The notes below the pieces were generated by a model. That model had not been told where the DNA came from. It was given only the letters and a program-made list of their open reading frames with translations, and made no database searches. Below, piece after piece: positions 26,661-45,423 of a DNA stretch of 45,423 nucleotides; the stretch's first letter is position 1; every line of letters begins with the position of its first letter. This DNA is from Acidimicrobiia bacterium (lineage in GTDB: Bacteria > Actinomycetota > Acidimicrobiia > Acidimicrobiales > Bin134). Location of the stretch: positions 2,607 through 48,029 of the forward strand of contig VYCQ01000004.1 of assembly GCA_009843865.1 (NCBI GenBank), given 5' to 3'. A program made the translations under genes and the position numbers.

Positions 26661-27884
26661 CTAACGCAATATCAACAACGACACAGCTTCATCAGCCTCA
26701 AGACCCTCGCCATCAGGCAGAACGGCGAGAGCATTCGCATTAGCCATCGCTGACATCTGATGCGACCCCTGCCCGCCTGCCGAGCTAACCAGATACTCCC
26801 CGTCCACATAACGCACCTTGACTCGAGCAAAGTGAGTTTTCCCATCGGGATGACGCGACAACTTCTCGGCTGTGCGCCCTAACGTGACTTGGCGATGCCA
26901 ACTTTCTGGGGGATGACCCATCATCTTGCGCAGCGCTGGTAGCACAAACAACTCAAACGAAACCATTGAAGACACCGGGTTACCGGGTAACCCAAACACG
27001 GGCACCCCATCAACTAGTCCAAAGGCCAACGGCTTAGCAGGTTTGATAGCTACCTGCATCCATGACATATCACCCATCTCATTGAGCACCTTCTTGACGT
27101 AATCGTAATCGCCCATGCTCACGCCGCCAGAGGTCAACACCCCATGACAGCACTCAGCACCAATGCGGATGGCATCGGCAATCTGAGACTCATCATCAGG
27201 CACGCAACCCAAATCCACTGGCTCACAGCCAGCCTCATCCAAAAGCGCTAACAACGTGTGCCGATTTGAATCGCGGATCTGGCCAGCCTTTAAAGGTTGA
27301 CACCCATCTACTAGCTCATCACCGGTGGAGAGCACACCCACACGGGGGCGTGGCCTTGCTTGTACCTCATAGACACCCAGGCTAGCCAACACTCCTAAAT
27401 GGCCTGGCGTGAGCACCTCGCCGGAGCCAAACACCACCTGACCGGCAACAATGTCTTCTCCAGCACGGCGAATATGGTTGCCCTTAGGCACCGCCTGAGC
27501 CACCTTGACCTCATCAGAATCGCCGCTAGCTTGAGTTAGCTCTACCATCACCACTGCGTCGGCACCGGGAGGAATAACCGCCCCGGTCATAACGCGTGCT
27601 GCCTGATTGGCTCCTACCACAACCGATGGCGTAGCTCCTGCGCTCACAGTGCCCACAACGGTCAAGGTAATCGGAGCCCCTACCACATCTTGAGAGCGCA
27701 CGGCAAAACCATCCATCGCCGTGTTGTCAAATGATGGTACCGGCTCAGGAGCCGTCACCGTCTCAGCAGTTAGCAGCCCACGCGCCTCAGCGATGCTCAC
27801 CGTTACCACTGGCAACACCGAGCAACCTGTGAGCACTCGATCCTGTGCTTGTGCTAGAGGAATCATCACTTGAGAACTCATCAC
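26661..27884 (-). CDS. moeA: Molybdopterin molybdenumtransferase (gephyrin-like)
   Basis: 407 residues. It inserts molybdate into adenylylated molybdopterin. Visible MoeA features: FDNTAMDGFAV, GAVIPPGADAVV, the MogA-like domain with STGDEL and LTSGGVSMGDYD, and the FGLPGNPVSS loop. The start overlaps the plsY stop; GTG 27884 and ATG 27881 are both possible and differ by one codon. In Corynebacteriales a MoeA homologue (Glp) acts in cell division with a membrane receptor. The SepX/GlpR-like gene in this cluster makes a double role possible, but nothing in this protein alone separates the two functions. Confidence 0.95.
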   Translation of the reverse strand: MMSSQVMIPLAQAQDRVLTGCSVLPVVTVSIAEARGLLTAETVTAPEPVPSFDNTAMDGFAVRSQDVVGAPITLTVVGTVSAGATPSVVVGANQAARVMTGAVIPPGADAVVMVELTQASGDSDEVKVAQAVPKGNHIRRAGEDIVAGQVVFGSGEVLTPGHLGVLASLGVYEVQARPRPRVGVLSTGDELVDGCQPLKAGQIRDSNRHTLLALLDEAGCEPVDLGCVPDDESQIADAIRIGAECCHGVLTSGGVSMGDYDYVKKVLNEMGDMSWMQVAIKPAKPLAFGLVDGVPVFGLPGNPVSSMVSFELFVLPALRKMMGHPPESWHRQVTLGRTAEKLSRHPDGKTHFARVKVRYVDGEYLVSSAGGQGSHQMSAMANANALAVLPDGEGLEADEAVSLLILR

Positions 27885-28459
27885 ATGATGGCCGGTTCGT
27901 CACGTTTCCACATGCGTGCAATGTTCTCATAGTGACGAACGACCACCACCACCGTCAGACCAATAGTCATGCCCACCTCTGATACAGGCCAGCCTTGAAC
28001 AGTCACCGCTATGGGCACAGCTATGGTGGCTAGCAACGAAGCGGCTGCTGCCCTTTTGGTCATCACCAAGCTGACACCCCAAATCCCCAACAAGACGGGG
28101 GCCACAACAGGGGTCAAAACCAGCAGGATCCCCCCATAAGTGGCCACCCCCTTGCCGCCGCCTCGAAAACGTCCCAATGGCAAGATATGACCAACCACCG
28201 CAGCAGTACCACAAACCACGCCTAAGAGATGATCACCCAATACAAGGCCCAGACCAGATGCGATTACCCCCTTACCCACATCGCCAAGCAAAACCCAGGC
28301 CGCAGGCCAACGCCCAGCCACCCGGTACGTGTTGCTAGCACCCGGATTATTAGAGCCCTGCTTGCTGGGATCTTTACCGGTATAGCCACCCACCAAAACA
28401 GCGCTTGGGAATGAACCCAACGCATAGCCAGCAACAATCAAAAGCCATTCCCAGGCCAT
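27881..28459 (-). CDS. plsY: Glycerol-3-phosphate acyltransferase PlsY
   Basis: 192 residues. This integral membrane enzyme transfers acyl groups from acyl-phosphate to glycerol-3-phosphate, the first step of phospholipid synthesis. The three conserved loops are present: GSFPSAVLVG (15-24), GSNNPGASNTYRVAG (35-49) and GHILPLGRFRGGGKGVATYGG, cited here by its GGGKG core near residue 100. Several hydrophobic segments fit the usual seven-span topology. ATG start at 28459. The stop overlaps moeA, which places a lipid gene at the head of the Moco operon. Confidence 0.95.
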   Translation of the reverse strand: MAWEWLLIVAGYALGSFPSAVLVGGYTGKDPSKQGSNNPGASNTYRVAGRWPAAWVLLGDVGKGVIASGLGLVLGDHLLGVVCGTAAVVGHILPLGRFRGGGKGVATYGGILLVLTPVVAPVLLGIWGVSLVMTKRAAAASLLATIAVPIAVTVQGWPVSEVGMTIGLTVVVVVRHYENIARMWKRDEPAIM

Positions 28460-28529
28460 CCCACAAGCGTAATAGCCAACTCAACTTGCAGCCGCAATGA
28501 ACGCAAACGTGACCAGAATTATTCTGAAA

Positions 28530-29351
28530 TTAATTCCGGAGGCGATTGCGGGCTATCTCAAAACAACCCACTGCTGTAGCGGCTGCAGCATTCAAAGAAT
28601 TGAGACGGCCAAACAGAGGGATTGCAGCCACTACATCGCATCTCTGCCGAGCTAGCCGGGATAAGCCCCTACCCTCGCTACCCACCACCAGCGCCACCGC
28701 CTCAGAGGACACGGACACCTCATAGATGGTGTTGGATGCAGCTATGTCTAAGCCCACGGTCCATACACCCAACTCAGATAAGCGAGCCAACGCATTCGGA
28801 ATCCCCCCTACCAACGCCATAGATATGTGTTCAATAGCCCCAGCAGCAGCTTTAGCAGCAGAAGGCGTAACATGAGCCGCGCGATGTCGAGCCAACACTA
28901 CGCCGGTTACGCCAGCGCATTCCGCGGTCCGCAGAGCTGCACCGACATTAACTGGGTCGGTCACGCCGTCCAATACCAAAAGAAACGGCACACCACCGCT
29001 CACATTACGCACAAGATCAGCTAGGTCATGTACAACTAGGGGCGCAGCATTAGCGATCACACCCTGAGGTGCCTCGGTAACAGCGATGTTATCAAACTTG
29101 GCTCGAGACAATTCCTTGATAGGAACCCGCAATTCGGCTGCCAAATCTAAAATTTCAGCCATGATGCCACTTGGCCGCTGGCTCGTCTTGCTGCTGCTAG
29201 CTGCTACCAGCACCTCGTGGACACGACGATTGCCAGCTAGCAACAACTCGCGCACAGCTTGACGGCCTTCCACCCGATCTCCACCCAACCCAGCCGGTCG
29301 ATGGCCGCGTCGCTCACGACGCTGGGGATTCTGGCTTGCTCGTCGTGTCAC
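28530..29351 (-). CDS. rlmB: 23S rRNA guanosine-2'-O-methyltransferase, SpoU/TrmH family
   Basis: 273 residues. A basic N-terminus (residues 1-25) precedes an L30e-like substrate-binding domain (GRQAVRELL to about 100). A SpoU methyltransferase domain follows with its three motifs: DGVTDPVNVGAALRTAE, ALVVGSEGRGLS and IPLFGRLNSLNAAAA, which form the trefoil knot that binds S-adenosylmethionine. RlmB is the usual name for this length and domain order; a tRNA target cannot be excluded. GTG start at 29351, 35 nt after the ispF stop. In many actinobacteria cysS lies between ispF and rlmB; it is absent here. Confidence 0.88.
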   Translation of the reverse strand: MTRRASQNPQRRERRGHRPAGLGGDRVEGRQAVRELLLAGNRRVHEVLVAASSSKTSQRPSGIMAEILDLAAELRVPIKELSRAKFDNIAVTEAPQGVIANAAPLVVHDLADLVRNVSGGVPFLLVLDGVTDPVNVGAALRTAECAGVTGVVLARHRAAHVTPSAAKAAAGAIEHISMALVGGIPNALARLSELGVWTVGLDIAASNTIYEVSVSSEAVALVVGSEGRGLSRLARQRCDVVAAIPLFGRLNSLNAAAATAVGCFEIARNRLRN

Positions 29352-29386
29352 AGGCCGAATTTCACAAGCATGTTCTGATTAACGGA

Positions 29387-29905
29387 CTACGAGCGTTGAC
29401 GAGTTATGAGCGCTACTGCCCAGCAAGCTAAACCTTCACACCGACCCAACGCCCCCAAACCCTCAGCCCGCTTGCCCTTCACCATTACCGGCGCACCCAC
29501 AGCCTCGCTGAGCAGTTCTTCTATTTCTTGGCGGCGCGGCGCAATACGGGGCGCTTCGGTAACCACAGTACAGTCAACGTTTACCACCACCCAGCCCTCC
29601 TGATTCAAACGAGCTATGGCTTTAGCCAGCAAGTCCATGCTGTTAGCCCCAGCCCAGGCTTCATCGGTTTCTGGAAACATGGCACCGATGTCGCCTAGCC
29701 CTGCGCAGCTCAACAATGCATCAATTACAGCATGAACCAGCGCGTCTGCGTCGCTGTGGCCCACCAACCCGGGACCGCTATCAAACCTAACACCACCCAA
29801 TATCAGCTTCTTGGTGACATCCTCACTGAAGCGATGAGTGTCGAAACCATGCCCCACACGAAAATCCTGCAACGACCCCTCAGGCATGTGCTGCTTAGCA
29901 GTCAT
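29387..29905 (-). CDS. ispF: 2-C-methyl-D-erythritol 2,4-cyclodiphosphate synthase
   Basis: 172 residues. It cyclises CDP-methylerythritol 2-phosphate in the MEP pathway. Metal-binding GHGFDTHRF (18-26) and GHSDADALVHAVIDALL (from residue 49) are intact. The CMP-binding segment is unusual: where most members have KATTTE, this protein reads KGKRAEGLG, replacing the conserved threonines. ATG start 29905 overlaps the ispD stop by 4 nt (ATGA), so the two enzymes are translationally coupled. Confidence 0.95.
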   Translation of the reverse strand: MTAKQHMPEGSLQDFRVGHGFDTHRFSEDVTKKLILGGVRFDSGPGLVGHSDADALVHAVIDALLSCAGLGDIGAMFPETDEAWAGANSMDLLAKAIARLNQEGWVVVNVDCTVVTEAPRIAPRRQEIEELLSEAVGAPVMVKGKRAEGLGALGRCEGLACWAVALITRQRS

Positions 29906-30552
29906 TTAACCAGCCCTTGTTTGAGCCAAGCTTCGGCTGCTAGCAAATCCTCGGGATAGGTGATCTTGATGTTGCAGCGGTGACCGTCCACGGTCACTAC
30001 CCGATGCCCTAAGACCTCCACCAAACTGGCATCATCAGATGCTTCACCAACACCTAAATGTGCATCCCGCAGCACCTCAGAGCGAAACGCTTGAGGGGTC
30101 TGAACCTCTAACAAATTGGCACGATCTACCATTTGGCCCCCCACATTACGGATAGTATCGGTAACCGGCACCACAGGCACCACACCAACGGCACCCGAAG
30201 CTACCTCTGCGATCACCTGTTGGTAGATCTCAACTAAAGCTAGCGGGCGGGCTGCATCATGCACGCAAACGATCTCTGCTTGGGCTGGAACTGCGGCCAA
30301 CCCCTGCCGAACCGATGCGGCCCTGCTAGTACCACCTGCCACCACCACAAACGCAACATCAGCGCTCAACCTCTCTGATACAGCTTGCACATCCAGCGCT
30401 GGCACTACCACCACCACCCCGTTGCTCACCTTGGCTGCGGTAGCCAAGCTGCGCTCCAACACCGTCTGCCCACAGATTTCGACATGCTGTTTAGCGCCAC
30501 CAAAACGGGTGCCAGCACCTGCCGCCACCAGCACTGTCCATACCAAATTCAC
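29902..30552 (-). CDS. ispD: 2-C-methyl-D-erythritol 4-phosphate cytidylyltransferase
   Basis: 216 residues. It joins CTP and methylerythritol 4-phosphate in the MEP pathway. The nucleotide-binding loop AAGAGTRFGGAKQH (11-24), VHDAARPL and a Lys-containing C-terminal DGHRCNIKITYPEDL are typical. GTG start at 30552. It is divergent from hemB, with about 100 bp between them that must hold both promoters; I could not pick out clear boxes. It feeds ispF directly and, eventually, the polyprenyl synthase at 35873. Confidence 0.95.
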   Translation of the reverse strand: MNLVWTVLVAAGAGTRFGGAKQHVEICGQTVLERSLATAAKVSNGVVVVVPALDVQAVSERLSADVAFVVVAGGTSRAASVRQGLAAVPAQAEIVCVHDAARPLALVEIYQQVIAEVASGAVGVVPVVPVTDTIRNVGGQMVDRANLLEVQTPQAFRSEVLRDAHLGVGEASDDASLVEVLGHRVVTVDGHRCNIKITYPEDLLAAEAWLKQGLVK

Positions 30553-30655
30553 AACCCTTGTTTACCCCATCAGCAGCGACCAATTGCAGCACAAGCACAA
30601 CACACACCTAGCAAGGATGCGACCCGAGCCCAACAAAGATGCAACCATAGAACAC

Positions 30656-31654
30656 ATGGCCCAGCCACATTTGCCCCTCACGGCTCGCCCTAGGCGCAAC
30701 CGACGAACCTCAGCTATCCGCAACCTAGTGCGTGAAACCGACCTAAACGCGGCTCATTTGGTATTGCCTTTGTTTGTGCATCAAAGTGCCGACGAACCCA
30801 TCTCAGCTATGCCCGGAGTACACCGCTGGAGCCGCGAGGGGCTGCTAAACGAAGTCACCCGATGCTCTAAGCTGGGCATACAAGCGGTGGTGCTCTTTGA
30901 GGCTACGGCCGACGAATTAAAGACCTCTACCGGCGACGAAGCTCACAACCCCAACGGGCTCATCCCGCAAACCGTGACCGCCATCAAATCATCACTACCC
31001 GAAACGGTGGTGATAACCGATGTGGCCCTAGACCCCTATAGCAGCGATGGCCACGACGGAATCGTAAACCCCGACGGCACCATCGCCAACGATGCCACCG
31101 TAGAAGTGCTCTGCCGTCAGGCCCTAGCTCATGCCAGCGCTGGTGCCGACATCGTCGCCCCCAGCGACATGATGGACGGCCGCGTGGGTGCTATTCGCCA
31201 AGCCCTTGACCAGCAGGGCTACAACAACGTAGGAATCTGCGCTTACACAGCCAAATATGCCTCAGCATTTTATGGCCCGTTTAGGGGAGCCTTGGATTCA
31301 GCCCCTCGCTTGGGCGACAAGAAGACCTACCAGATGGACCCAGCCAATGCCCGTGAAGCACTACGAGAGCTTGAGCTAGATATTGCCGAGGGTACCGATA
31401 TGGTGATGGTGAAGCCAGCTGGCCCCTACCTAGATGTTATACAGAGATTTGCCGATGCCTCTGTAGTACCGGTAGCCGCATACCAGGTAAGTGGCGAGTA
31501 CCTGATGATCAAGGCCGCAGCAGCATCAGGCTGGCTAGACGAACAAACCGCTATCATCGAAACCCTAACCAGTATCCAACGGGCTGGTGCCGACATCATC
31601 TTTACCTACTTTGCTGCTCAAGCAGCCACAATCTTGAATCAGCAAAACCCTTAA
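30656..31654 (+). CDS. hemB: Porphobilinogen synthase (delta-aminolevulinic acid dehydratase)
   Basis: 332 residues from ATG 30656, which matches the normal family length; ATG 30617 would add 13 residues. It condenses two 5-aminolevulinate molecules on the way to haem and cobalamin. The Schiff-base lysines are Lys200 (AYTAKYASAFYGPFR) and Lys253 (MVKPAGPYLD). The metal segment, residues 122-134 (DVALDPYSSDGHD), has Asp in place of the Cys ligands of zinc enzymes, so this is the magnesium-type class. No Shine-Dalgarno precedes either start, so a leaderless message is possible. Confidence 0.93.
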   Translation: MAQPHLPLTARPRRNRRTSAIRNLVRETDLNAAHLVLPLFVHQSADEPISAMPGVHRWSREGLLNEVTRCSKLGIQAVVLFEATADELKTSTGDEAHNPNGLIPQTVTAIKSSLPETVVITDVALDPYSSDGHDGIVNPDGTIANDATVEVLCRQALAHASAGADIVAPSDMMDGRVGAIRQALDQQGYNNVGICAYTAKYASAFYGPFRGALDSAPRLGDKKTYQMDPANAREALRELELDIAEGTDMVMVKPAGPYLDVIQRFADASVVPVAAYQVSGEYLMIKAAAASGWLDEQTAIIETLTSIQRAGADIIFTYFAAQAATILNQQNP

Positions 31655-31679
31655 ATCAGCACATCTCATCAATCAGCGT

Positions 31680-33203
31680 TTAAGACCACGAACGACGACG
31701 GAAAAAATCAGAAAAGCTGTTAACCACAGCGTGCCTAGAAGCATCCGCTTCACTAGAAGAGGTACCGGCAAACAGCGCCGTAGACATGCCCAACGCTTGA
31801 GCTGCATCCAAATGCTGCACGTTTACATCCACCAGCAAGATATTCTCATAAGAGATTGACGTGATACGCCGTAGCGCCTCATAGATGCCCGTGGCAGGCA
31901 TACACACCCCCACATCACTGCTCAGAATCCAGGTATCAATCCCGGCAATTGGAAATCGCTTCCGCAATGCCAAAGACCATGCCGAGACATCATTAGCTAC
32001 ACAAACCACCGGCAAATCTCGGCGAACCATCTCAGCCACAAAATCACGCGCCCCCGACCGCACGGTGTAGCGCGCTGTGAACTCTTCGCTTAATGCTTCA
32101 GGACTCATCTGATCTCTACCCGCCGTATCAGAATCATCATCAGAATCACCTGCGTCAAAATCCCCGATGATGCCCATCCCATCCCAGAACTCGGCAGGGG
32201 TAATGCGTCCCAACACTGCCTGACGATACAAATCCTCCAACTCCTCTTGGGCAACGTCATAGCCTCGCTGCCGCACAAACTCTCCCAAGAACTCGCTAGG
32301 GTTACATGCTGGTTGAAACAACACACCCAGCGGATTCAATGCCACAAGCTGCAAGCGCCTTCGCTGTGATTCTGACTCCGCAAAGCTAGATGTCGGAAGT
32401 AAGCCTGCTTGACTCGATGACGACTCTAGTCCGCGGCCCTCAGCTCGGCGCTCTAGCAAGTAGCCCGCAACTGCGATCAGCAAAGCTAAGCCCAGCAAAG
32501 CAAATCCTGCGTAGGCCACCCAACGCAACGTTACGGCAGTAACGCTGCGTTGTTGAGCAACCACCTCCAACTGTTCGGCTGCTTGTCCTAGCTTCAGCGC
32601 CACGCTCTGGCGAGGGCCAACCGGCAAAGCCACGCCAACCTCTACGGTCACAGCGCTCAGCAACACATTCAGATCACCCACCGGTTCGCCAAGGGGCTGG
32701 CCATCTAACCGCTTCGTAAGCTCGGGATCGGCGATGAGATCTACGCCACCCGACAGATCCACCACTCCTGTAAATCTGTAATCGGTTTTGGCAAAAGAAG
32801 TGTCGCGCTCGAAGCTGAAATCGCGAAATGCCTCATCAGAATGAAAAACCTCAGCTAACACCAGCTCTAACTGTTGCAAAGAGGCAAACTCTTTAGAAGC
32901 TGAGAACCTGACATAACCCTCACCATCGGTGCGAGGTCGTCTATAAACCCAACCCGAAGCTGAATTCTGGATGTCTTCGGTCAGCGCCAACGAAACAATC
33001 TCGGGAACCAAAGCTAAGACCTCGGGATCTAACGACATCTCCACGGTAACCACACCCGAGCCATCAGTGTTGAGATTGATGTCCACCAAGATGCCTACCT
33101 GACATGCACTCAAACCCAACATGAGCGCAAGCGCCAACGTACAGCCACGCACAAGTGGCCTCCTGATGAGCCTTCTGTGCGCCCTCTTGAGCACCGCCAA
33201 CAT
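31680..33203 (-). CDS. LppM-like lipoprotein fused through one membrane span to a degenerate HAD domain
   Basis: 507 residues. A basic signal peptide ends in a lipobox LSAC with Cys34. Residues 35-220 form an LppM-type extracytoplasmic domain (INLNTDGSGVVTVEMSLDP). A membrane segment spans 228-250. Residues 286-500 have the layout of a HAD hydrolase, but motif I is ALNPLGVLF, with Asn290 where the nucleophile Asp belongs. The motif III lysine is replaced by Met435 and motif IV reads LVDVNVQ instead of VDD. Phosphatase activity is therefore unlikely, and a sensing or scaffold role is plausible. It lies 7 bp after clpC on the same strand. ATG start at 33203. Confidence 0.8.
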   Translation of the reverse strand: MLAVLKRAHRRLIRRPLVRGCTLALALMLGLSACQVGILVDINLNTDGSGVVTVEMSLDPEVLALVPEIVSLALTEDIQNSASGWVYRRPRTDGEGYVRFSASKEFASLQQLELVLAEVFHSDEAFRDFSFERDTSFAKTDYRFTGVVDLSGGVDLIADPELTKRLDGQPLGEPVGDLNVLLSAVTVEVGVALPVGPRQSVALKLGQAAEQLEVVAQQRSVTAVTLRWVAYAGFALLGLALLIAVAGYLLERRAEGRGLESSSSQAGLLPTSSFAESESQRRRLQLVALNPLGVLFQPACNPSEFLGEFVRQRGYDVAQEELEDLYRQAVLGRITPAEFWDGMGIIGDFDAGDSDDDSDTAGRDQMSPEALSEEFTARYTVRSGARDFVAEMVRRDLPVVCVANDVSAWSLALRKRFPIAGIDTWILSSDVGVCMPATGIYEALRRITSISYENILLVDVNVQHLDAAQALGMSTALFAGTSSSEADASRHAVVNSFSDFFRRRSWS

Positions 33204-33210
33204 TTGTGGC

Positions 33211-35724
33211 CTAAGCGCCAGCTAGTTGTTCTACTGGTGGCGGTTCAAAACCTTCAGTGGCGCTAAAGCAGATCCGCTCGGCACCAGGCTCATCGGGGTC
33301 ATCTTCGGCATCCACCACCACAATTTCGCCAGCACGAAACTCCTTCCATAGCAAACGCTCAGACAACGGATCTTCCACCAAACGCTGAATGGCCCTGCGC
33401 AGCGGACGAGCCCCCAAGGTGGGGTCATAACCCCGCTGAGCTAGCAGCACCTTGGCAGACTCGGTGAGCTCCAAGCTGATGCCTTGCGCTTCAAGTTGAT
33501 CTTGCAGACGCTTGATCATCAAGTCCACAATCTGAGTGACCTCTTCACGAGTAAGTTCATGAAACACGATCACCTCATCAATGCGATTCAAGAACTCCGG
33601 GCGGAAGTGATCCTTGAGAGCCTCTGTAACCTTGGCTTTCATGCGCTCATAGGTGACGGCCTCATCAGCCTTGGTGAACCCTAGGTTAGCTTTGCGTAGA
33701 TTCTGGGTGCCTAAATTGGAGGTCATGATCAACACCGTGTTGCGGAAGTCCACCGAACGCCCCTGGCTGTCGGTTAAACGACCCTCTTCTAGAATTTGCA
33801 ACAACGTGTTAAACACATCGGGATGAGCTTTTTCAATCTCATCAAATAACACCACTGAGAACGGCTTGCGGCGCACCGCCTCAGTAAGCTGTCCGCCTTC
33901 TTCGTAACCCACATAGCCCGGCGGCGATCCCACCAACCGACTCACGGTGTGCTTTTCCATGTACTCCGACATGTCTAGCGATATAAGCGCTTGTTCATCG
34001 CCAAACAAGAACTCGGCCAAAGTCTTGGCCAGCTCCGTCTTACCTACACCCGATGGACCCAAAAAGATGAACGACCCACTGGGACGCTTGGGATCCTTCA
34101 AACCAGCGCGTGTGCGGCGAATAGCCTGCGAAACCGCCTTGATAGAGGTCTCTTGACCTATCACCCTCTTGTGCAACTCATCTTCCATGTGCAACAACTT
34201 GGCGGTTTCCTCTTCGGTAAGCTTGTAAACAGGGATGCCGGTCCAAATAGACAGAACCTCGGCCACTGCCTCCTCGTCTACCTCATCAAACAAATCCACA
34301 CCCTTGTCTTTGCTCTCGGATTCCATTTGCCCCTTACCCGCCAAGAGTTCCTTTTCTTTGTCGCGCAAACGACCCGCCTCTTCAAAATCCTGCTGCTCAA
34401 CTGCTTGTTTCTTCTGAGAAATCACCTCAGCTAACTGCTGTTCAAAATCCTTGTAGTCGCCGGGAGTATCCATACGCCTGATACGCATGTGCGAGCCAGC
34501 TTCATCAATGAGATCGATGGCCTTATCGGGCAGGTGGCGATCTGAAATGTAGCGGTCAGCCAAGTTGGCTGAGGCCACCAAAGCTTGATCGGTAATGTTC
34601 ACCCGATGATGCGACTCGTAGCGATCTCGCAAACCCTTGAGGATCTCGATGGTGTGAGCAATGGTAGGTTCATCTACCTTGACCGGCTGAAAACGCCGCT
34701 CTAGAGCGGAGTCCTTCTCAAGATGCTTGCGGTACTCATCCAAGGTGGTGGCCCCAATAGTCTGGAGCTCACCTCGTGCCAGCATGGGCTTGAGAATGGA
34801 CGCAGCGTCAATAGCCCCCTCAGCAGCCCCTGCACCCACCAATGTATGCAGCTCATCAATGAACAAGATGATGTCGCCGCGATTTTTAATTTCCTTTAAC
34901 ACCTTCTTGAGGCGCTCTTCAAAATCCCCCCGATAGCGAGAACCCGCCACCAGCGCGCCTAAATCCAATGTGTAGAGCTGCTTGTTGCGGATTGTTTCGG
35001 GCACATCATCGACGGCGATCTTTTGGGCTAGACCCTCCACAATGGCGGTTTTGCCCACACCAGGCTCGCCCACAAGCACCGGATTATTCTTGGTGCGTCG
35101 CGATAACACCTGCATCACCCGCTCGGTTTCACGTTGTCGACCAATCACAGGGTCAAGACCACCTTCGCTTGCCACACGAGTCAGGTTCCGCCCAAACTGA
35201 TCCAAAACCAAAGACCCCGAAGAACCATCTCCACTGCCACCGGGCGATGTGGTGGCCTTTTCTGGTGATCCTGAACCCTGAACTCCTCCGTAGCCCGACA
35301 AAAGCTGGATTACCTGCTGGCGCACTCGCGACAAATCAGCGCCTAGCTTAACCAACACTTGAGCAGCCACCCCCTCGCCCTCGCGAATGAGCCCCAACAA
35401 AATATGCTCAGTACCAATGTAGTTGTGACCAAGCTGAAGGGCTTCGCGCAAAGACAACTCCAACACCTTCTTGGCCCTAGGAGTAAACGGAATGTGGCCC
35501 GATGGCGACGAACCACCCTGGCCGATTATCTCTTCCACCTGGTTACGCACCGCTTCCAGTGAAATACCCAACGACTCTAACGATTTAGCAGCTACCCCTT
35601 CGCCTTCATGGATAAGCCCCAACAAAATGTGCTCAGTACCGATGTAGTTATGGTGCAGCAACCGCGCTTCTTCTTGGGCTAACACCACCACCCGGCGGGC
35701 TCTATCTGTGAATCTCTCAAACAC
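33211..35724 (-). CDS. clpC: ATP-dependent Clp protease ATP-binding subunit ClpC
   Basis: 837 residues starting at GTG 35724 ([11 protein letters not shown]), supported by GGGAG 6 nt upstream; the longer open frame upstream lacks family similarity. Two Clp_N repeats cover residues 3-140. AAA domain 1 has Walker A GEPGVGKT (219-226). A UVR-type coiled segment ([15 protein letters not shown]) lies in the middle region. AAA domain 2 has [12 protein letters not shown] and ends in a D2-small domain. The hexamer unfolds substrates for ClpP. The LppM-HAD gene follows 7 bp downstream and the polyprenyl synthase is divergent. The N-domain has the two repeats expected of ClpC rather than ClpB. Confidence 0.96.
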
Positions 35725-35730
35725 GGCAAA

Positions 35731-35735
35731 CTCCC
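35731..35735 (-). promoter_or_regulatory. Shine-Dalgarno fixing the clpC start
   Basis: GGGAG on the minus strand, 6 nt before GTG 35724, supports this start over farther upstream candidates. Confidence 0.8.
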
Positions 35736-35872
35736 GATATTTAATCCACCTGGCAGTGTAACCAATAAACCCCTTTATTTCGTCCTCAATGACCTCTCGA
35801 TGAGCTAAAAGACCCTCCAACAAACCAACCAACACTGAAGACAAATTACACTCTGAGCGATACGCTGAAGAC

Positions 35873-36865
35873 GTGCCTCGCAGTCCGCTGGATCTGATTC
35901 CAACCATGAAACGCGACCTACAACGCCTAGAGCTGCGACTCGAAAAAGCTGTCCACACAGAGCATCCCTTCCTGACCGAAATCGCCAGCCACCTCATCCG
36001 AGCAGGCGGAAAACGGGTACGACCTGGTTTCGTGATAGCGGCTGCCAACATAACTCAGCCCCGGATGTCGCCCGTCCATGAAAAGGTGCTCACCGGCGGC
36101 GTAGCAGTAGAGCTAGTGCATCTAGGTTCGCTATACCACGACGATGTAATGGATGAAGCTCAGCTAAGGCGCAACGTAGACAGCGTCAATGCAAAATGGG
36201 GCAACCTGCGGGCCATCTTGGCTGGCGACTTTTTACTGGCCCGAGCATCGGAGCTAGCCGCTTCGCTAGGAACCGAAGTAGCAAGTGTGCTGGCAGCCAC
36301 CATCGGACACCTCTGTGAGGGCCAAGTAAGAGAGCTGCAAGACACAGGCAACCCCGACCGCACCGAAGAGTCCTACACCGCATCCATTGAGGGGAAAACC
36401 GCCTCACTGCTAGCCACATCTTGTCGTATAGGTGCTTTGGTGGCAGAGGTCAGTCGCCCGACCATTGAGGCATTAACGGAATTCGGGCGCTGCTACGGCC
36501 TGGCATTTCAAGTGGTGGACGACATCTTGGACATCGTGGCCACCGATGAACACCTTGGAAAACCCTCTGGAAACGACTTGCATGAAGGGCTCTACACGCT
36601 ACCGGTAATCCGTGCGCTCACAACCGCCCATGGCCCGCAACTACGAGACTTGCTAGGCAGAACCGTCTCAGATGCTTCGGTTCGTTCAGCAATTCAGCTT
36701 GTGCAAGCCAGCGGCGGTGTAGAACAAGCTTTAGATGTTGCCCGCCGCTACGCGCATGAAGCCTCCGCTATCTTACAGGCCCTGCCTCCCTCTACCGCGA
36801 CTAAGGCGCTCGGCGTGGCGACAGAGCATTTGATTGCACGCGCCCGCATACCCCTGGGCAATTAG
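35873..36865 (+). CDS. Long-chain polyprenyl diphosphate synthase
   Basis: 330 residues, class I trans-prenyltransferase fold. It adds isopentenyl units to an allylic diphosphate, probably to make the side chain of menaquinone. The first Asp-rich motif is in [15 protein letters not shown] (DDVMD) and the second in [25 protein letters not shown] near residue 45 binds the diphosphate. Small residues just before the first motif suggest a long product, but exact length cannot be read from sequence. GTG start at 35873; an in-frame ATG 12 codons on is a weaker alternative. It is convergent with lysS. Confidence 0.9.
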
Positions 36866-36933
36866 CTGGATAATTAGCTAAACAATTAGTCACCCGCGCT
36901 CTCTGGGCATTCAAGATGGGCATTCGGGACTTG

Positions 36934-38343
36934 CTATTCAGAACTCTGTGGACATTCAGGCCGCAAGGTGGGAAACAAGATCACGTCACGAATGCTGGGC
37001 ACATCTGCCAACAACATCACCAGACGATCCATGCCAATACCCAAACCCCCAGTGGGTGGCAAGCCGACTTCCAAAGCCCGCAAGTAGTCGTGGTCTAAGG
37101 CCATGGCCTCAGCATCACCAGCAGCCAACTCAGCAGCTTGATCTTCAAAGCGTATGCGCTGCTCATCTGGGTCGGTCAGCTCGCTAAAGGCATTGGCCAA
37201 CTCGCGACCTGCCAAGATCGCCTCAAAGCGCTCCACCCAACCGGGGTGGTCGCGATGCTCTTGTGCCAACGGCGACACCTCCTTGGGATAATCACACACA
37301 AACACCGGCCCCCACAGCTCAGGCTCAGTTGTTTTCTCGTACAACTCCAACAAAAGCTTGCCCGGGCCCCAGCGATCCTCCACCAGGATCTCCCTGTCAA
37401 CACAATGTGACCGCAGATCTTCCAGGGGGGTGTTGAGGTTGACATCTAAGCCGCTATGGGTAGTCAACAAGTCGATAAACCGAACACGAGGCCATGGCGG
37501 CGTTAAATCCAGCTCTCGTCCACCGTAACTAAGCTTGGTGGTGCCTCTCAGCTCAACAGCTAGATGGACAACAAGCTCCTCTAGTAGCTCCATAATGGCG
37601 CGGTAATCAGCGTAAGCCCAGTACAGCTCTAAGATGGTGAACTCGGGGTTGTGTCGGGTAGAGATGCCCTCATTGCGAAATACCCGGGCAATCTCATACA
37701 CCCGCTCTATGCCGCCCACCACCAGTCGCTTTAAATACAACTCGGGTGCTACTCGCAAGAACAACGTCATGTCTAAAGCATTGTGGTGGGTGACAAACGG
37801 ACGGGCCAGCGCACCTCCAGGCACAGGGTGAAATACCGGTGTCTCGACTTCGATGAACCTCCGCTCTTCCAGCCATCGGCGGGTGAGCGACATCATCTTA
37901 GATCGCATCTGAAACGTTTGGCGGGCCTGCTCAGTAACCCACAAATCCACATAGCGCTGACGAAACCGAGTATCGGGATCGGCTAGCCCGTGCCACTTGT
38001 CGGGAAAGCTACGACGAGCAGATGCAAGCAACTCCCACTGTGCAACCTTGATTGACAATTCACCTTTGCGGGTCTTCATCACCTCACCGCTGACCCGCAC
38101 CCAATCTCCTAGTGACAAGCCACAAAAGTCGTCATAATCGGGGGTGGTTTTGGTGGGCGCAAATAACTGAATACGTCCAGTGGCATCTTGGAGGGTGGCA
38201 AACGTTAGTTTGCCCTGCACTCGCCGGAGCATGATCCGGCCCGCCACCGCCGCTGTCTGACCGATCTCGGTACCAACCTCTATGTCACCGTAGCGCTGAT
38301 GGCACTCGGCAGTGGTGATCTCAAACCGATCGAGAACGCTCAT
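36934..38343 (-). CDS. lysS: Lysyl-tRNA synthetase, class II
   Basis: 469 residues. The OB-fold anticodon-binding domain is at about 30-110. The class II catalytic core has motif 2 in [15 protein letters not shown] and motif 3 in [16 protein letters not shown]. It charges tRNA-Lys. The protein is slightly shorter than most LysS (about 490-510) at the N-terminus but has all core motifs. ATG start 38343 overlaps the coaX stop (ATGA), so it is translationally coupled to pantothenate kinase, an arrangement seen in other actinobacteria. Confidence 0.96.
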
Positions 38344-39146
38344 CGGACAAACTGCCGATTACGCTTATGCACAAGCCATAAACCGTGAAGGGTCAAATAA
38401 GGTTCTACATGTTGAATGGTTTGCGAAAGCGGGGCTATGAGATGCGCCAGCCCGCCAGTAGCGATCACGATCAGCTCTTGACCTAGCTCAGCCTCAAACC
38501 GAGACACCATGCCATCAATTTGAGAAGCAAACCCATAAATAACACCCGACTGTATGGATTCCGTAGTAGTTTTGGCGATCACGTTGCGAGGCTCAATTAG
38601 CGCCACCGGCCCCAAGGCAGCAGCCCGACCCACCATGGCATCAAGGCTGACCTCAATGCCAGGGCCAATGGCTCCACCCAAAAACTCACCGTCTTGCGAG
38701 ATCACATCAAAGTTATTGGTGGTGCCGAAGTCCACCACCACTGCGGGGCCTCCATAAAGATGATTAGCGGCCACAGCGTTAGCGATGCGGTCGGCACCAA
38801 CCTCATGGGGGTTGTCGTACAGAATAGGAATTCCACTACGAGTGCCCGGCTCAATTACCACTGACGAGAAATCGAAAAAGCGCTGCACCATAATCCGCAT
38901 GCTCTCACGCATACGAGGCACGCCTGAACACACCGCCACCCCAGTAAGATCTGCCTCCATATCCACGCCCTCGCTGTCAAGCAAGCTGCGCAACAACACC
39001 ACAATCTCATCAGGGGTTCGCTCTTGTACTGTGGAGAGCCGCCAATGCTGAACAAGCCCGTCTTCGGCAAGACAATCTTCAGCCCGCTCAGCCTCATACA
39101 GACCAACCACCGTCTCGGTGTTACCTATATCAATAGCCAACAACAT
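38340..39146 (-). CDS. coaX: Type III pantothenate kinase
   Basis: 268 residues from ATG 39146, which begins with the family's [13 protein letters not shown] phosphate loop; GTG 39179 upstream would add 11 unconserved residues. It phosphorylates pantothenate in the first step of coenzyme A synthesis. Further motifs: [11 protein letters not shown] and [11 protein letters not shown] for the pantothenate and ATP sites, and [15 protein letters not shown]. The last gene product of the pathway, CoA, supplies phosphopantetheine to carrier proteins such as those of the PKS. Followed by lysS. Confidence 0.94.
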
Positions 39147-39279: not shown

Positions 39280-42200
39280 TTATTCTTCTTGCTGTTCTTT
39301 TTCTTCTTTTCGTGCTGTTTGCTGTAGGGCTGGGTTGGGGGTGATGCTTTCGTCGGTGTTATCGGTGTCTTCAGCATCGTCAGAATCATCGTTGCCGGTG
39401 TCTTCAACATCGGTGGTGTCATTGTCAGTAATGGATACAGTCACATGGTTGTCGACAGTGTCAGAATCTTCGTCGTCAGAAGCTGTGACACCGCCGCTCA
39501 GGTTTGTGACCAGACTGGTGTCTGTGAGGTCACCGAGAGTGATTGTGACGGTCTCAGCGCTTTCGACAACATCGTCGTCCACTGCGGTGAGTATGAGTGT
39601 CGCTGTTTGCGCGTCCACACCTGCGAGGGTCACCGACGGTGTCAACGTGGTTTGCTCAGACAACGTAACCCCGCTGTTAATCCCCACACCTGTTTTCAAA
39701 GCCAACCTGAAATCGTCTGCAACAACACTGTCACCTGAAATGTTCAACGGTATTTGTACTGTCTCACCCGCCACCAACACACGATCTAACTGGACTGTGA
39801 TTTCTGCGCTCACCGTTGTATCAGCTTCGGACACCGTGCCACCACCGCTGAGCGTCACCGCTGTGACATCATCATCGGTTACTGTTACTTTCACCGAGCC
39901 AACCGCAACCTCGTCATAAGCAGAATCAACAGACGACACCACATGCGTCACAACCGCCGAACGCTGCCCACCCGCATTATCCACCTCATCATCCACACCA
40001 GCAACGACCACAGTTTGAGGCTCAAACCAATCCAACACACCAAACACAAGCTCATCAGGCGACACACCCGCCACACCAATATCACCAGAAACCACTGCCA
40101 CCGTCACATCACCAGAAGGCACCGCACCCAAAACCACAGAATACAAACCAGTCACAACCCCATCCTCCGAAACCATCACCACAGCCTCAGACACAACCAC
40201 CCCAACCTCACCATCATCATCAACAACCCTCACAACCACCCGGTTATCCACACTATCAGGGTCTTGGTCGTCAGATGGTGTGACACCGCCGTTCAGGTTT
40301 GAGACCAAACCAGTGTCTGTGAGATCACCGAGAGTGATTGTGACAGTCTCCGCGCTTTCAACAACATCGTCATCCACTGCGGTGAGTATAAGTGTCGCTG
40401 TTTGCGCGTCTGCACCTGTGAAGGTCACCAACGGTGTCAACGTGGTTTGCTCAGACAATGCAACCCCAGTGTTAACCCCATCACCTGTTTTCAAAGCCAA
40501 CCTGAAATCGGCTGCAACAACACTGTCACCCGAAATGTTCAACGGTATTTGTACTGTCTCACCCGCCACCAACACACGATCTAACTCGACTACTACTTCT
40601 GCGCTCACCGCTGTATCAGCTTCGGACACCGTGCCACCACCGCTGAGCGTCACCGCTGTCACATCATCATCGGTCACTGTTACTTTCACAGGGCTAGCCG
40701 TAGCATTGTTGTAGGTAGGGTCAGTAGACGAAACAGCGTGTATGATCATCGTTGAACGTTGACCTCCTGGGTTGTCAATGTTGTCGTCCATGCTGGTAAT
40801 GGTCACAGTTTGTGGTTCATCCCAATCTGATGTATTGAACACAAGCTCTCCGGGTGACACAGCCGCAACATCAACATCATTTAAGGTGACCGTCACCATC
40901 ACCTCGTGGGAAGGTTCGGTGCTGAGCACCACCGTGTAAGAATCAACAACCGTCCCATCCTCGGAAACCGTCAACGTGGTTTTAGACAAGATCACCCCAG
41001 CATCATCGTCAACGATCGTCACGTCTGCTTGGTTGTCAATGGTGTCAGGGTCTTGGTCGTCAGAAGCTGTGATACCGCCATTCAGGTTTGTGGCCAGGTC
41101 AGTGTCGGTGAGATTGCCGAGGGTGATTGTGACAGTCTCCGCGCTTTCGACAGCGTCGTCGTCCACTGCGGTGAGTATAAGTGTTGCTGTTTGCGCGTTT
41201 GCACCGGTGAGGGTTACCGATGGTGTTAACGTGTTAGCATCATCCAAGTTCACACCGGTGTTTATTTGATCACCTATTTTGAGAGCTAGTGTGAAGTCGT
41301 CTGCTTCCACACCCGAAACGACCAGCGGTATTTGCGCTGTTTCACCTGCTACCAACGCTCTGTCTAACTCAACAGCGATCTCGGCTGTTGTTGACACATC
41401 AGCTTCAGACACTGTGCCCCCACCTATGAGTGTGACCGCTGTCGCATCATCATCGGTGATGGTGATGCTGGTTTTGTTTTGTTTGTTGGACACTGTGTAG
41501 TGGTCTGCTTGTTGAACTGTGGCTACAACTGTGCCTGCTGGCTGGTCAACGTCATCCACATGGGTGGTGTAGGTGTAAGTAGCTGAGGTTTCACCAGCAG
41601 CAACAACCACCTGCGCAAGTGTCACGAAAGCTGTTTCAGAGTTCCCACTGCTGCGGGTTTCTTCAATGTCTAACATCACTGTTAAATCAACAGTGGGGGC
41701 AGGGTCAACGCTCACCACAAACACAGCGTCATCACCTTCAACAACAAGATCTTTGTTACTAGACACACCCACCGCTGGCACCACAGGCTCTACCACCACA
41801 AGCTCAGCACTATTGCTCGGAGCGGTATAAGTGCCGTAAAGGGTTTGGATTTGTGTGTTGTTTAGGGTTTTGTTGTAAATGCGGATGTCGTCTAGCCAGG
41901 TGTTAGCAGCCAAAGTGCCGTCTGTTTTGGCACCGATGCGTGCTAAAGCCAACGGGTGGGCGGTGTTAACGGTGATGGGGTTAGCACCGTTGACGTAAAG
42001 CTTCACCGATGAGCTGTCACCAACCAAGGTTAGATGTGTCCATTCGCCTGCGGGGGCGGTGTAAGCGAATGTGTTGTTGCCGATTGATATTCGGTTAGCG
42101 TTACCGGTTTCGAGCTTGATTTGGCCTGCGCTACCGGTGGCGGGGGCGAACAACACTGCGTCACCGGTTACAGCGGTGCGTTTCACCCACAACGCGGCGG

Positions 42201-45200
42201 TCCACCCGTCAACCGCGGGTAGCGGATCAGCGCCGGTGTAAATCCAGTCGACTGCGCCGTCTAAGCTGATCGCCCCACCGTCAACACCGGCGGTTTGCCA
42301 ACTAGCACCGGTGATAGTGCCTGCGGTGTGGCGGCGGCCTATATCCGATGCGTAGTGACCGGCATCATCGTTGAATGTCCACAAATGGGCTAGGTGTTCG
42401 TAGGCCGGATCATCGTATGATTGGTAATGGGCGAGGATTTCGTCGACGGTGAGGGCTTGATCCCAGATTTTTAGTTCATCTACTCGTCCAGAGAAATAGT
42501 AGTGGGTGTTACTCCAGCTGCGGCGTTGTAGTGTTTTGCGGGGCATAGGTATAGACACTGCTAACATGTCCTTTAGCACACCGTTGGCGTAAATCTTCGT
42601 GTTAGCAGCGGTGCCAACAAACGTTAAATACACCCAAGTATTTAACGGCGCTGCGTAACTAGAGCTGTACCTGCGGCTGTTGTCCTCATAATCGATAACA
42701 CCAACTTTGCGGCCCGAACACATTTCCAAAACAATAGAATGACCTCTGTTTCTGCCAAGTGTGTGTTGACCAGAGCTAAACAAAGTAGCGTCGCAACGAC
42801 TACCGCTGCGACGCACCCATATTGATGCTGTCCACGGCACCGCAATATCATGATCGGCCCACTCCACACCGCTGCCACGACCGCCACCCGATCCACCAGT
42901 GGTATCCAACGACTCGCCTAACACAGCGTGTGTAGCGTTGATCGCTGGCTTCCGTCGCGGCCCACCGCCGCCCACACCGGTGGTCCCATGCGCGCTACCT
43001 ATTTCGTCAATAATGCCTTGCAACCAGTGAGCACCCGGTGGTTGAGCATGATAAACCCCCGGCCACGACAGCGAATCGAACGTGTAATAATGGCTAGGCG
43101 ATCCATCATCCACACGCGCAGGCGGGGTAGCGAACCCGACATAGCCGGGCGGGTCACCCACCGCAGCTAAAGTAACCTTAAAATCGTCTATCGTGTCCGA
43201 AGGTGTGGTGTGGTTCCACGTCCTATCAGCCACCACGGCTCTCACCAACCCTAGTTGCATTTCCTCTTCAGCGAACCGGTCGGTAGCCCAAAACGCTTCA
43301 TCCACCCACACCGCCACACCAGAGCCCATCTCCAAAGTACGCTGCGCTGGGAACGTGCCGCTCAAAGTGTTCTCATACAACTTTTTACTGTTCGCTAGCT
43401 GCGCTGCGTTACCACCCAATATCACATACAAACCATCAGACCACCAACGAATATTCACCGACGCGTTACCATCATTACCAAAACTATGGTCGCGACCCTT
43501 CCACGGCAATATGATCGCATCATCATCAACCGCCACCGTAGGTCTAGGCCAACCACGAGTTTCAGCGTAATCACCGAACACCATCGATCGTTTACCCACA
43601 CCCTTAGCTGCTGTTTGCATCGTGTTAATGAACTGCACCCACACGTTGGTAGCGTTGTTACCGCTATAACAAGAACTGCTACCTTTAAAAGCCTCGCTAA
43701 TCTCATCAGCGCCCACACCGAAAAACGGGCCAGGGAACCAGGCAGCAAAATGCGTTAATAACCCCTTAACTGTGGTTTGAACCGCAGCCTTCTCGAAATC
43801 GATCGTATACCCAGTAGGCCGATAAGTACGAGAAATGCAACTATTACTAATACCAATACCAAAATACTTAGAAACCGCCGCAGCATGATTCGGTACATTC
43901 AACGCCGGAATAATATTCAAATGATGCTCGGCTGCTACCGCTAACAACGCGTCCACATCAGCTTTTGTGTAATGCCCCTGCGGCGGAGCTAAACACACCT
44001 GCTTGCCGTTAACGGTTTTGCAATATTTAACTGGATCATGCAACCGAAACGCTGGATCCTCAGACAAATGCCAATAAAACGAATTCATCTTCATCCACGA
44101 CATCCGCCGTATCGAATCAGCTAAATACGACGGCTCCCAATATTTACGACCCATATCCAGATGCACCATCCGCACCTGCTGAGTCGCAGTAGGCCAATCC
44201 CGCGCAACACCCCGCGGCACTGTCACACCATCATCAGACAACCTTAACGCTTGCAACAAAGTACGCGATCCATAAAACACGCCAGTAGACGAATTAGCCG
44301 AGATCACCACACGATTAGACACCATCAACTCATAGCCTTCGGCCGACAACGCCGAATCTGCACTATCTGAAATATCCAACACCACATCCCCCGCCGCAAG
44401 TGTCACACCATTCTCACCAGCCACCACCACCGACAAATCCAAACCCGTCTGCGCTTTCAAATCAGCCTTCACCTTGTCAGCCACCTGTCGAAGCGTCCTC
44501 TGAGACGACGTGTGATGAGGCACCGCCCATTTAGAATTTACTATTGCCAAGGGATCTGACAGCCCGCCCAACACTGTTGAATACCAATCATCAGACCAAT
44601 GACGTGCTTTATCCCCCGCCGCGACCACAACTCGTGACGAACTTGTTAATGCCAAACTACCACGACTTCCAACCCACGACTGCAACCGCGGCACCACCGC
44701 AAGCTCAGCATTTGGCGATCCGTAGCTATCATATATGGTTTTAATTGCTTGTGCTGGGAACCGAAGATTGCTGACGAAGAGGTCGTCTATATCGGCATAA
44801 ACTTGGCGGTTGCCGTTATACAACTGGCCGAGCCGCCACAACGGTAAATTGAAACGGTCGCTTATGTTTTGTTGGTGTGTACCGTTCACATACAAACTAG
44901 TGCCAGTAGCACTGCTTACTAGAGCAATATGTGTCCACATATCAAGAGGCACGGTGTAGTCAAAGTTGACATCTTTCCAGCGGCTGCCGGTATACACCTC
45001 AAAACCCAGCCGCCGGTTGTTGCCGTTCTCTAAAAACACAGCACTGGCCGTGAGTGCAGACGGATGGTTATACACCCCATTGCGGCTTGACAGTAAAACC
45101 GATTTAGAACTATTACCGTTGCGGCGTACCCAAAACATAGCAGTCCAACCACCTAATAAACCAGTTGAAACTGGTAGTGGTGAGGTTCCTAGTTGTACGT

Positions 45201-45423
45201 ATTCACCGGCTTTATCAAAAGAAACCGCTGTCCCCTCAACACCTGGAGTCCAACTCGCACCGCCTACCAGGGTGCCCGGCACCAGCGGTGTTTCTATGTT
45301 TGCTGCGATTGTGCCGGTCTCGTCATTAAAGCTCCAACGATGCGACGCAATGGGTGCTGCTCCGTAGGTGTCGTATAGGGTTTTGATGTCTTTTGCGTTG
45401 GTGGTGCCTTCGCGGGCGATGAG
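39280..45423 (-). CDS. Secreted GH20 beta-N-acetylhexosaminidase with LamG and Calx-beta modules, 5'-partial
   Basis: The frame is open to the right edge, so the true start and any signal peptide are outside; GTG 45282 is internal. At least 2047 residues are visible. From the N-terminal side: a LamG/concanavalin-like domain (nt 44710-45370); a GH20b-like support domain (44200-44690); the GH20 barrel (about 43160-44200) with the catalytic Asp-Glu pair in GVGADEIS at nt 43702-43707; two more LamG domains (42390-43090 and 41830-42360); then a row of Calx-beta and related domains (39430-41800) and a charged tail ending in EEKEQQEE. GH20 enzymes remove terminal GlcNAc or GalNAc by substrate-assisted catalysis. 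Chitin, peptidoglycan or host glycans are possible substrates. No sortase signal or C-terminal membrane span is seen. Confidence 0.9.
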   Translation of the reverse strand, partial: LIAREGTTNAKDIKTLYDTYGAAPIASHRWSFNDETGTIAANIETPLVPGTLVGGASWTPGVEGTAVSFDKAGEYVQLGTSPLPVSTGLLGGWTAMFWVRRNGNSSKSVLLSSRNGVYNHPSALTASAVFLENGNNRRLGFEVYTGSRWKDVNFDYTVPLDMWTHIALVSSATGTSLYVNGTHQQNISDRFNLPLWRLGQLYNGNRQVYADIDDLFVSNLRFPAQAIKTIYDSYGSPNAELAVVPRLQSWVGSRGSLALTSSSRVVVAAGDKARHWSDDWYSTVLGGLSDPLAIVNSKWAVPHHTSSQRTLRQVADKVKADLKAQTGLDLSVVVAGENGVTLAAGDVVLDISDSADSALSAEGYELMVSNRVVISANSSTGVFYGSRTLLQALRLSDDGVTVPRGVARDWPTATQQVRMVHLDMGRKYWEPSYLADSIRRMSWMKMNSFYWHLSEDPAFRLHDPVKYCKTVNGKQVCLAPPQGHYTKADVDALLAVAAEHHLNIIPALNVPNHAAAVSKYFGIGISNSCISRTYRPTGYTIDFEKAAVQTTVKGLLTHFAAWFPGPFFGVGADEISEAFKGSSSCYSGNNATNVWVQFINTMQTAAKGVGKRSMVFGDYAETRGWPRPTVAVDDDAIILPWKGRDHSFGNDGNASVNIRWWSDGLYVILGGNAAQLANSKKLYENTLSGTFPAQRTLEMGSGVAVWVDEAFWATDRFAEEEMQLGLVRAVVADRTWNHTTPSDTIDDFKVTLAAVGDPPGYVGFATPPARVDDGSPSHYYTFDSLSWPGVYHAQPPGAHWLQGIIDEIGSAHGTTGVGGGGPRRKPAINATHAVLGESLDTTGGSGGGRGSGVEWADHDIAVPWTASIWVRRSGSRCDATLFSSGQHTLGRNRGHSIVLEMCSGRKVGVIDYEDNSRRYSSSYAAPLNTWVYLTFVGTAANTKIYANGVLKDMLAVSIPMPRKTLQRRSWSNTHYYFSGRVDELKIWDQALTVDEILAHYQSYDDPAYEHLAHLWTFNDDAGHYASDIGRRHTAGTITGASWQTAGVDGGAISLDGAVDWIYTGADPLPAVDGWTAALWVKRTAVTGDAVLFAPATGSAGQIKLETGNANRISIGNNTFAYTAPAGEWTHLTLVGDSSSVKLYVNGANPITVNTAHPLALARIGAKTDGTLAANTWLDDIRIYNKTLNNTQIQTLYGTYTAPSNSAELVVVEPVVPAVGVSSNKDLVVEGDDAVFVVSVDPAPTVDLTVMLDIEETRSSGNSETAFVTLAQVVVAAGETSATYTYTTHVDDVDQPAGTVVATVQQADHYTVSNKQNKTSITITDDDATAVTLIGGGTVSEADVSTTAEIAVELDRALVAGETAQIPLVVSGVEADDFTLALKIGDQINTGVNLDDANTLTPSVTLTGANAQTATLILTAVDDDAVESAETVTITLGNLTDTDLATNLNGGITASDDQDPDTIDNQADVTIVDDDAGVILSKTTLTVSEDGTVVDSYTVVLSTEPSHEVMVTVTLNDVDVAAVSPGELVFNTSDWDEPQTVTITSMDDNIDNPGGQRSTMIIHAVSSTDPTYNNATASPVKVTVTDDDVTAVTLSGGGTVSEADTAVSAEVVVELDRVLVAGETVQIPLNISGDSVVAADFRLALKTGDGVNTGVALSEQTTLTPLVTFTGADAQTATLILTAVDDDVVESAETVTITLGDLTDTGLVSNLNGGVTPSDDQDPDSVDNRVVVRVVDDDGEVGVVVSEAVVMVSEDGVVTGLYSVVLGAVPSGDVTVAVVSGDIGVAGVSPDELVFGVLDWFEPQTVVVAGVDDEVDNAGGQRSAVVTHVVSSVDSAYDEVAVGSVKVTVTDDDVTAVTLSGGGTVSEADTTVSAEITVQLDRVLVAGETVQIPLNISGDSVVADDFRLALKTGVGINSGVTLSEQTTLTPSVTLAGVDAQTATLILTAVDDDVVESAETVTITLGDLTDTSLVTNLSGGVTASDDEDSDTVDNHVTVSITDNDTTDVEDTGNDDSDDAEDTDNTDESITPNPALQQTARKEEKEQQEE
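39518..41450 (-). repeat. Three long direct repeats (about 790-bp period) in Calx-beta region
   Basis: A block beginning with near-identical sequence at 39518, 40313 and 41102 on the + strand (offsets 795 and 789) recurs within the Calx-beta part of the GH20 gene. Each copy encodes the same domain pair (DDVVESAETVTITLGDLTDT and neighbours). The first two copies are closest. Confidence 0.8.

Follow-up and report, generated by a model that had tools for sequence, protein, structure and literature searches.

A lipid-anchored LppM-like protein with a pseudo-HAD domain, encoded beside clpC in the Acidimicrobiales

The locus and the protein

The stretch of DNA analysed here (the window, 45,423 nucleotides of contig VYCQ01000004.1 from an Acidimicrobiia bacterium) contains a gene for a chimeric protein in which an LppM-like outer part, a transmembrane segment and a HAD-like part are joined (Table 1). 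The gene lies immediately downstream of clpC, with 7 bp between the stop codon of clpC and the start of the chimera as the open reading frames are read; no promoter-like match was found in this gap, and an Rfam search of positions 27000-39000 gave nothing useful. The longest clpC open reading frame extends about 109 codons beyond the usual ClpC N terminus and overlaps a divergent polyprenyl synthetase gene; the true start is likely the GTG near 35724. Elsewhere in the window are a polyketide synthase of 3202 aa (9373-18981), with two ketosynthases, an acyltransferase, a dehydratase, a methyltransferase, reductases and a carrier domain, and a protein of 2000 aa (39280-45282) that combines a GH20 catalytic domain with three laminin-G-like stretches.

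Table 1. Position of the chimera, its parts and diagnostic residues, and of clpC, in the window.
Feature	Coordinates	Strand	Basis
LppM-like/transmembrane/pseudo-HAD chimera, 507 aa	31680..33203	-	Open reading frame with ATG start; orthologues across the order
Signal peptide with lipobox LSAC	33102..33203	-	Lipidated Cys34 codon at 33102-33104
LppM-like outer domain, residues 35-218	32550..33101	-	Match to LppM-only profile; confident beta-rich model
Long helix, residues 221-260, including the single membrane span, then RR (positive-inside)	32424..32543	-	Sequence; AlphaFold helix
Flexible linker, residues ~258-282	32358..32432	-	pLDDT < 50 for 258-278
Cytosolic pseudo-HAD (HAD-IA, C1 cap), residues 283-507	31683..32357	-	AlphaFold; Foldseek
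Motif I nucleophile position, Asn290, not Asp	32334..32336	-	Family alignment
Motif II position, Ala403, not Thr/Ser	31995..31997	-	Family alignment
Motif III position, Met435, not Lys	31899..31901	-	Family alignment
Motif IV, Asp459 kept (LLVDV), second acidic position Val460	31824..31829	-	Family alignment
R445 and R446, conserved in chimeras, absent from standalone relatives	31866..31871	-	33/38 and 34/38 chimera representatives
H491, conserved in chimeras	31731..31733	-	37/38 chimera representatives
clpC, immediately upstream of the chimera	33211..36051	-	Pfam and NCBIfam; linkage in relatives

The lipobox cysteine directly precedes the LppM-like domain, as in LppM-like lipoproteins, and is invariant in the family alignment of 68 sequences. 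The AlphaFold model of the whole protein, built with 68 family sequences, has a mean pLDDT of 87.2 and a pTM of 0.51, and that of the HAD part alone reaches 90.7 and 0.87, respectively. The low pTM of the whole protein fits two rigid parts held on a flexible linker. In the topology that we infer, the lipidated domain lies outside the membrane and the HAD part inside. This strain has an acidic insert in the cap region of its HAD (residues ~343-365, positions 32108-32177), and the corresponding cap loop of other members of the genus is about 19 residues shorter.

The assignment of the inner domain to the HAD superfamily is weak for the single sequence, which matches PF00702 at an E-value of only 0.076 and the NCBIfam model RUBPPhHalo at 2.3e-5, and secure for the family, in which 52 of 59 members match PF00702 (best 1.5e-16) and profile matches to PDB chains go down to 1.6e-10. 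Model and Foldseek agree on a Rossmann-like core with a cap, and the solved structures recovered are HAD-IA throughout (L-2-haloacid dehalogenase, YihX, 3cnh, BT2542 and the N-domain of soluble epoxide hydrolase), 3cnh superposing best (chain 3cnh_B, TM 0.77 by target, rmsd 2.9). For the outer domain, the Pfam scan gave no match to LppM (PF21946) above the cut-off with the protein of the window. The LppM-only relatives, i.e. proteins with this domain and no HAD part, do match it in 11 of 20 cases (best 3.7e-7) and a profile made from them finds the protein of the window at 4e-49, so that the designation LppM-type holds by transitive homology. The same profile had no match among PDB chains. The architecture proposed by the earlier note, an LppM-type outer domain joined by one span to a cytosolic HAD fold, is supported by profile, AlphaFold and Foldseek, and it is conserved well beyond this genome.

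Each of the 21 further genomes searched within the genus gave a match, which in two was partial or split. In the order, of which 248 genomes were searched, 88 chimeric loci were read, spread over about 14 families; the LppM-only form occurs in other families. Placed on a ClpC tree, the distribution of chimeric and LppM-only forms needs six changes. Since only one of them is forced by well-supported branches, the fusion may have arisen once and been lost afterwards. The members of one family (f56, L112-L116) have a long insert between the span and the HAD part, giving open frames of 775-885 aa.

Catalytic motifs and selection

Neither the Asp nucleophile of motif I nor the Lys of motif III is present in the protein of the window (Table 1), and the alignment of the family confirms the substitutions by Asn290 and Met435 that had been read from the single sequence. 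The same reading had the Asp pair of motif IV missing, but the first Asp is retained and the change is confined to the second acidic position. It also had the rest of the HAD core well preserved; the Thr of motif II, however, is lost as well, which the reading had overlooked. Asn occupies the nucleophile position in 21/21 members of the genus that cover the motif, and the motif III position is Met or Leu across the genus. Ala403 is common only to the strain of the window and its sister L002, the rest of the genus having Thr or Ser.

The second Asp of motif I, replaced by Leu292, deserves separate treatment. No orthologue with DxD was found among the 86 HAD parts aligned, and a single one has A-x-D (L120). 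The second Asp is missing from motif I elsewhere too, as in D-A-M-G of the standalone relatives, D-F-G-G of other actinobacterial HADs and FDLGN of a YihX of Salmonella. The YihX of E. coli is an active phosphatase, which turns over alpha-glucose 1-phosphate with an apparent kcat of ~10 per s (PMC4251788). The absence of the second Asp is an ancestral trait of this branch of HADs and, since the active YihX has DxG, compatible with catalysis. We have consequently rejected it as proof of a dead domain; the telling loss is that of the nucleophile.

This loss is far from uniform. Among 85 scored chimeras (a count that excludes 8 non-chimeric rows) the nucleophile position is Asp in 35, Asn in 21, Gly in 19, Glu in 9 and His in 1; Asn is the residue of the whole genus of the window, and the three last-named residues occur in other families. 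The tree, which in places has long branches and unresolved forks, requires six changes between Asp and another residue, counted without regard to direction, and at least three of them are forced by well-supported branches. Seven changes are required between Lys and other residues at motif III. Losses are the simpler reading, because all non-chimeric rows carry Asp. The loss of catalysis would then be recurrent and lineage-specific, and not a trait of the whole family. Outside the genus, some of the 35 chimeric HADs that retain Asp also retain every other motif, and Asp, Thr, Lys and DD are all present in L026, L029, L076, L077 and L082, among others, and in families such as f18 and f25. Going by their motifs, these proteins could still be enzymes, and the ancestral role of the domain could have been catalytic.

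The HAD part has been kept under selection irrespective of its missing nucleophile. The HAD and LppM parts have median dN/dS values of 0.158 and 0.159, respectively (153 pairs from 18 members of the genus, all with Asn290). These values are to be taken as approximate since many dS values are 0.6-0.9, and the strain of the window and L002 were excluded as too diverged. The HAD without nucleophile is thus under strong purifying selection, equal to that on the LppM part, and is not decaying. W340, W409, L465 and G472 are invariant in the 38 chimera representatives, and R445, R446 and H491 set the chimeras apart from their standalone relatives. W340 and W425 are common to the chimeras and the standalone D-A-M-G group. 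The earlier suggestion of a fold retained without catalysis is supported for the genus of the window, but it need not hold for the 35 chimeras elsewhere that keep Asp.

Two other readings can be weighed at this point. The protein might still be an enzyme. In many lineages it would then be a phosphatase like YihX or a related hydrolase, and the genus of the window would either rely on different residues or represent an inactive branch. The activity of YihX and the complete motifs of f18, f25 and similar families speak for it; the genus-wide loss of nucleophile, Lys and half of motif IV in a domain that shows no decay, and the recurrence of the loss in other families, make it unlikely. Alternatively, the LppM part might do the work, in envelope lipid handling, and the HAD serve as no more than a plug on the cytosolic side or a tag for stability. 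LppM-only forms are indeed common in the order, some of them directly downstream of clpC, and LppM of Mycobacterium tuberculosis has been reported to bind phosphatidyl-myo-inositol mannoside (PMC6151718). We consider this very improbable, as the HAD is constrained as strongly as the LppM part and has conserved residues specific to the chimeras, both of which point to a function of the HAD itself.

The neighbourhood of clpC

Linkage to clpC is widespread. Of the chimeric loci, 74 have 500 bp or more of upstream sequence, and in 70 of these clpC is found upstream on the same strand, in 68 within 300 bp of the lipobox Cys. The four chimeras without it are L075, L086, L100 and L102. It is also present in 16 of 20 LppM-only loci (15/18 distinct genomes, as two genomes were present twice), within 300 bp in 8. 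Nine loci whose lipobox was missed by the pattern are omitted from these counts. In one LppM-only genome from another order of the class the LppM gene directly follows clpC. In one genome (L134:1975-2382) clpC and the LppM-only gene are separated by a short open reading frame that, judged from its sequence, resembles universal stress proteins.

The clpC-radA-disA-ispD-ispF series is a familiar gene neighbourhood of Gram-positive bacteria. In the 20 wider loci inspected, the divergent polyprenyl synthetase gene (ids) and clpC were always present, ispD was found in 14, and genes for RadA-like proteins and DisA followed downstream in several. The conserved block around the LppM gene comprises ids, clpC, LppM, radA, disA, ispD and ispF, and the LppM gene is an insertion after clpC in this neighbourhood. 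A DisA gene is present in the block of some relatives; in the window hemB instead separates the chimera from ispD, and the DAC domain of DisA (PF02457) was not found in the genome of the window (98% complete).

It has been proposed from the adjacency of the two genes that the chimera is an outside-to-inside sensor coupled to the ClpC protease. In a more explicit form, the pseudo-HAD would dock on ClpC and, responding to the outer domain, recruit the protease or hold it at the membrane. The close linkage, with the chimera directly downstream of clpC in nearly all loci and no promoter-like match in the 7-bp gap, is real and fits such an adaptor or anchor. However, an old gene block that is conserved as a whole tells little about ClpC itself, the same place is occupied by LppM-only proteins without HAD, and four chimeras lack the upstream clpC. 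We have therefore rejected the 7-bp linkage as specific evidence for a partnership, and regard an adaptor of ClpC as improbable. Gene order of this kind would support co-expression at most, with no specific tie to ClpC, which is an unproven candidate among other possible partners. Our literature search found no paper naming both LppM and ClpC.

Proposed role and known relatives

These observations taken together suggest, with a probability of about 0.6, a membrane-tethered pseudo-enzyme whose inner HAD binds a ligand or a protein partner and is coupled to the state of the outer domain. The LppM-like domain would be held on the outer side by the lipidated N terminus, a single helix would cross the membrane, and inside there would be a YihX-like HAD-IA fold deprived of the Asp nucleophile, the Thr of motif II, the Lys of motif III and half of motif IV. 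Since several lineages have lost the nucleophile, yet the fold and R445, R446, H491, W340, W409 and W425 have stayed, the inner domain most likely binds. It probably senses or holds something and does not cut, a role suggested by conservation, and it might relay the state of the lipid-facing domain outside, or be governed by it. A bolder version, a transmembrane receptor in which the LppM domain senses an envelope lipid and the repeatedly inactivated HAD recruits or controls the ClpC protease, seems quite improbable to us; if true, it would be an undescribed type of transmembrane protease adaptor.

To our knowledge, HAD-fold pseudo-enzymes have been little studied in bacteria, and a literature search on HAD pseudophosphatases gave nothing useful. 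Here a single membrane family has the nucleophile changed in several lineages, with the domain under strong selection, and related proteins have retained the other catalytic motifs. Such a naturally occurring set lends itself to the question at what point a phosphatase fold turns into a module for binding. The family also draws attention to an unstudied protein whose gene adjoins that of ClpC across a large and mostly uncultured order.

Among known systems, LppM (Rv2171 of M. tuberculosis, PF21946) shares with the chimera the lipobox, the beta-rich outer domain and the membrane segment, with homology established through the LppM-only relatives; we know of no HAD domain in mycobacterial LppM. 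The LppM-like genes outside the class differ in their location, none adjoining clpC in the loci examined. That they might lie beside a polyprenyl synthetase was also considered and rejected, with no match in the stretches examined. The nearest soluble relatives of the HAD part are the standalone actinobacterial HADs with D-A-M-G (L198, L246 and L247, apparently an unnamed HAD-IA group), which share W340, W409 and W425 but are not membrane-bound, have Asp, Thr/Ser, Lys and DD intact and lack R445, R446 and H491. YihX and other HAD-IA variant 3 phosphatases (TIGR01509, TIGR02247; solved relatives of the HAD part are 2b0c, 8pne and 3cnh) have the same fold, cap type and motif I without second Asp. 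The chimera differs from them in being bound to the membrane and, in the window, in lacking nucleophile, Thr, Lys and one acid of motif IV. Finally, the non-catalytic HAD receptors of the Tim50 type are eukaryotic, belong to another HAD branch and have no LppM domain, but they use a membrane-anchored HAD-like fold for binding, as we propose for the chimera.
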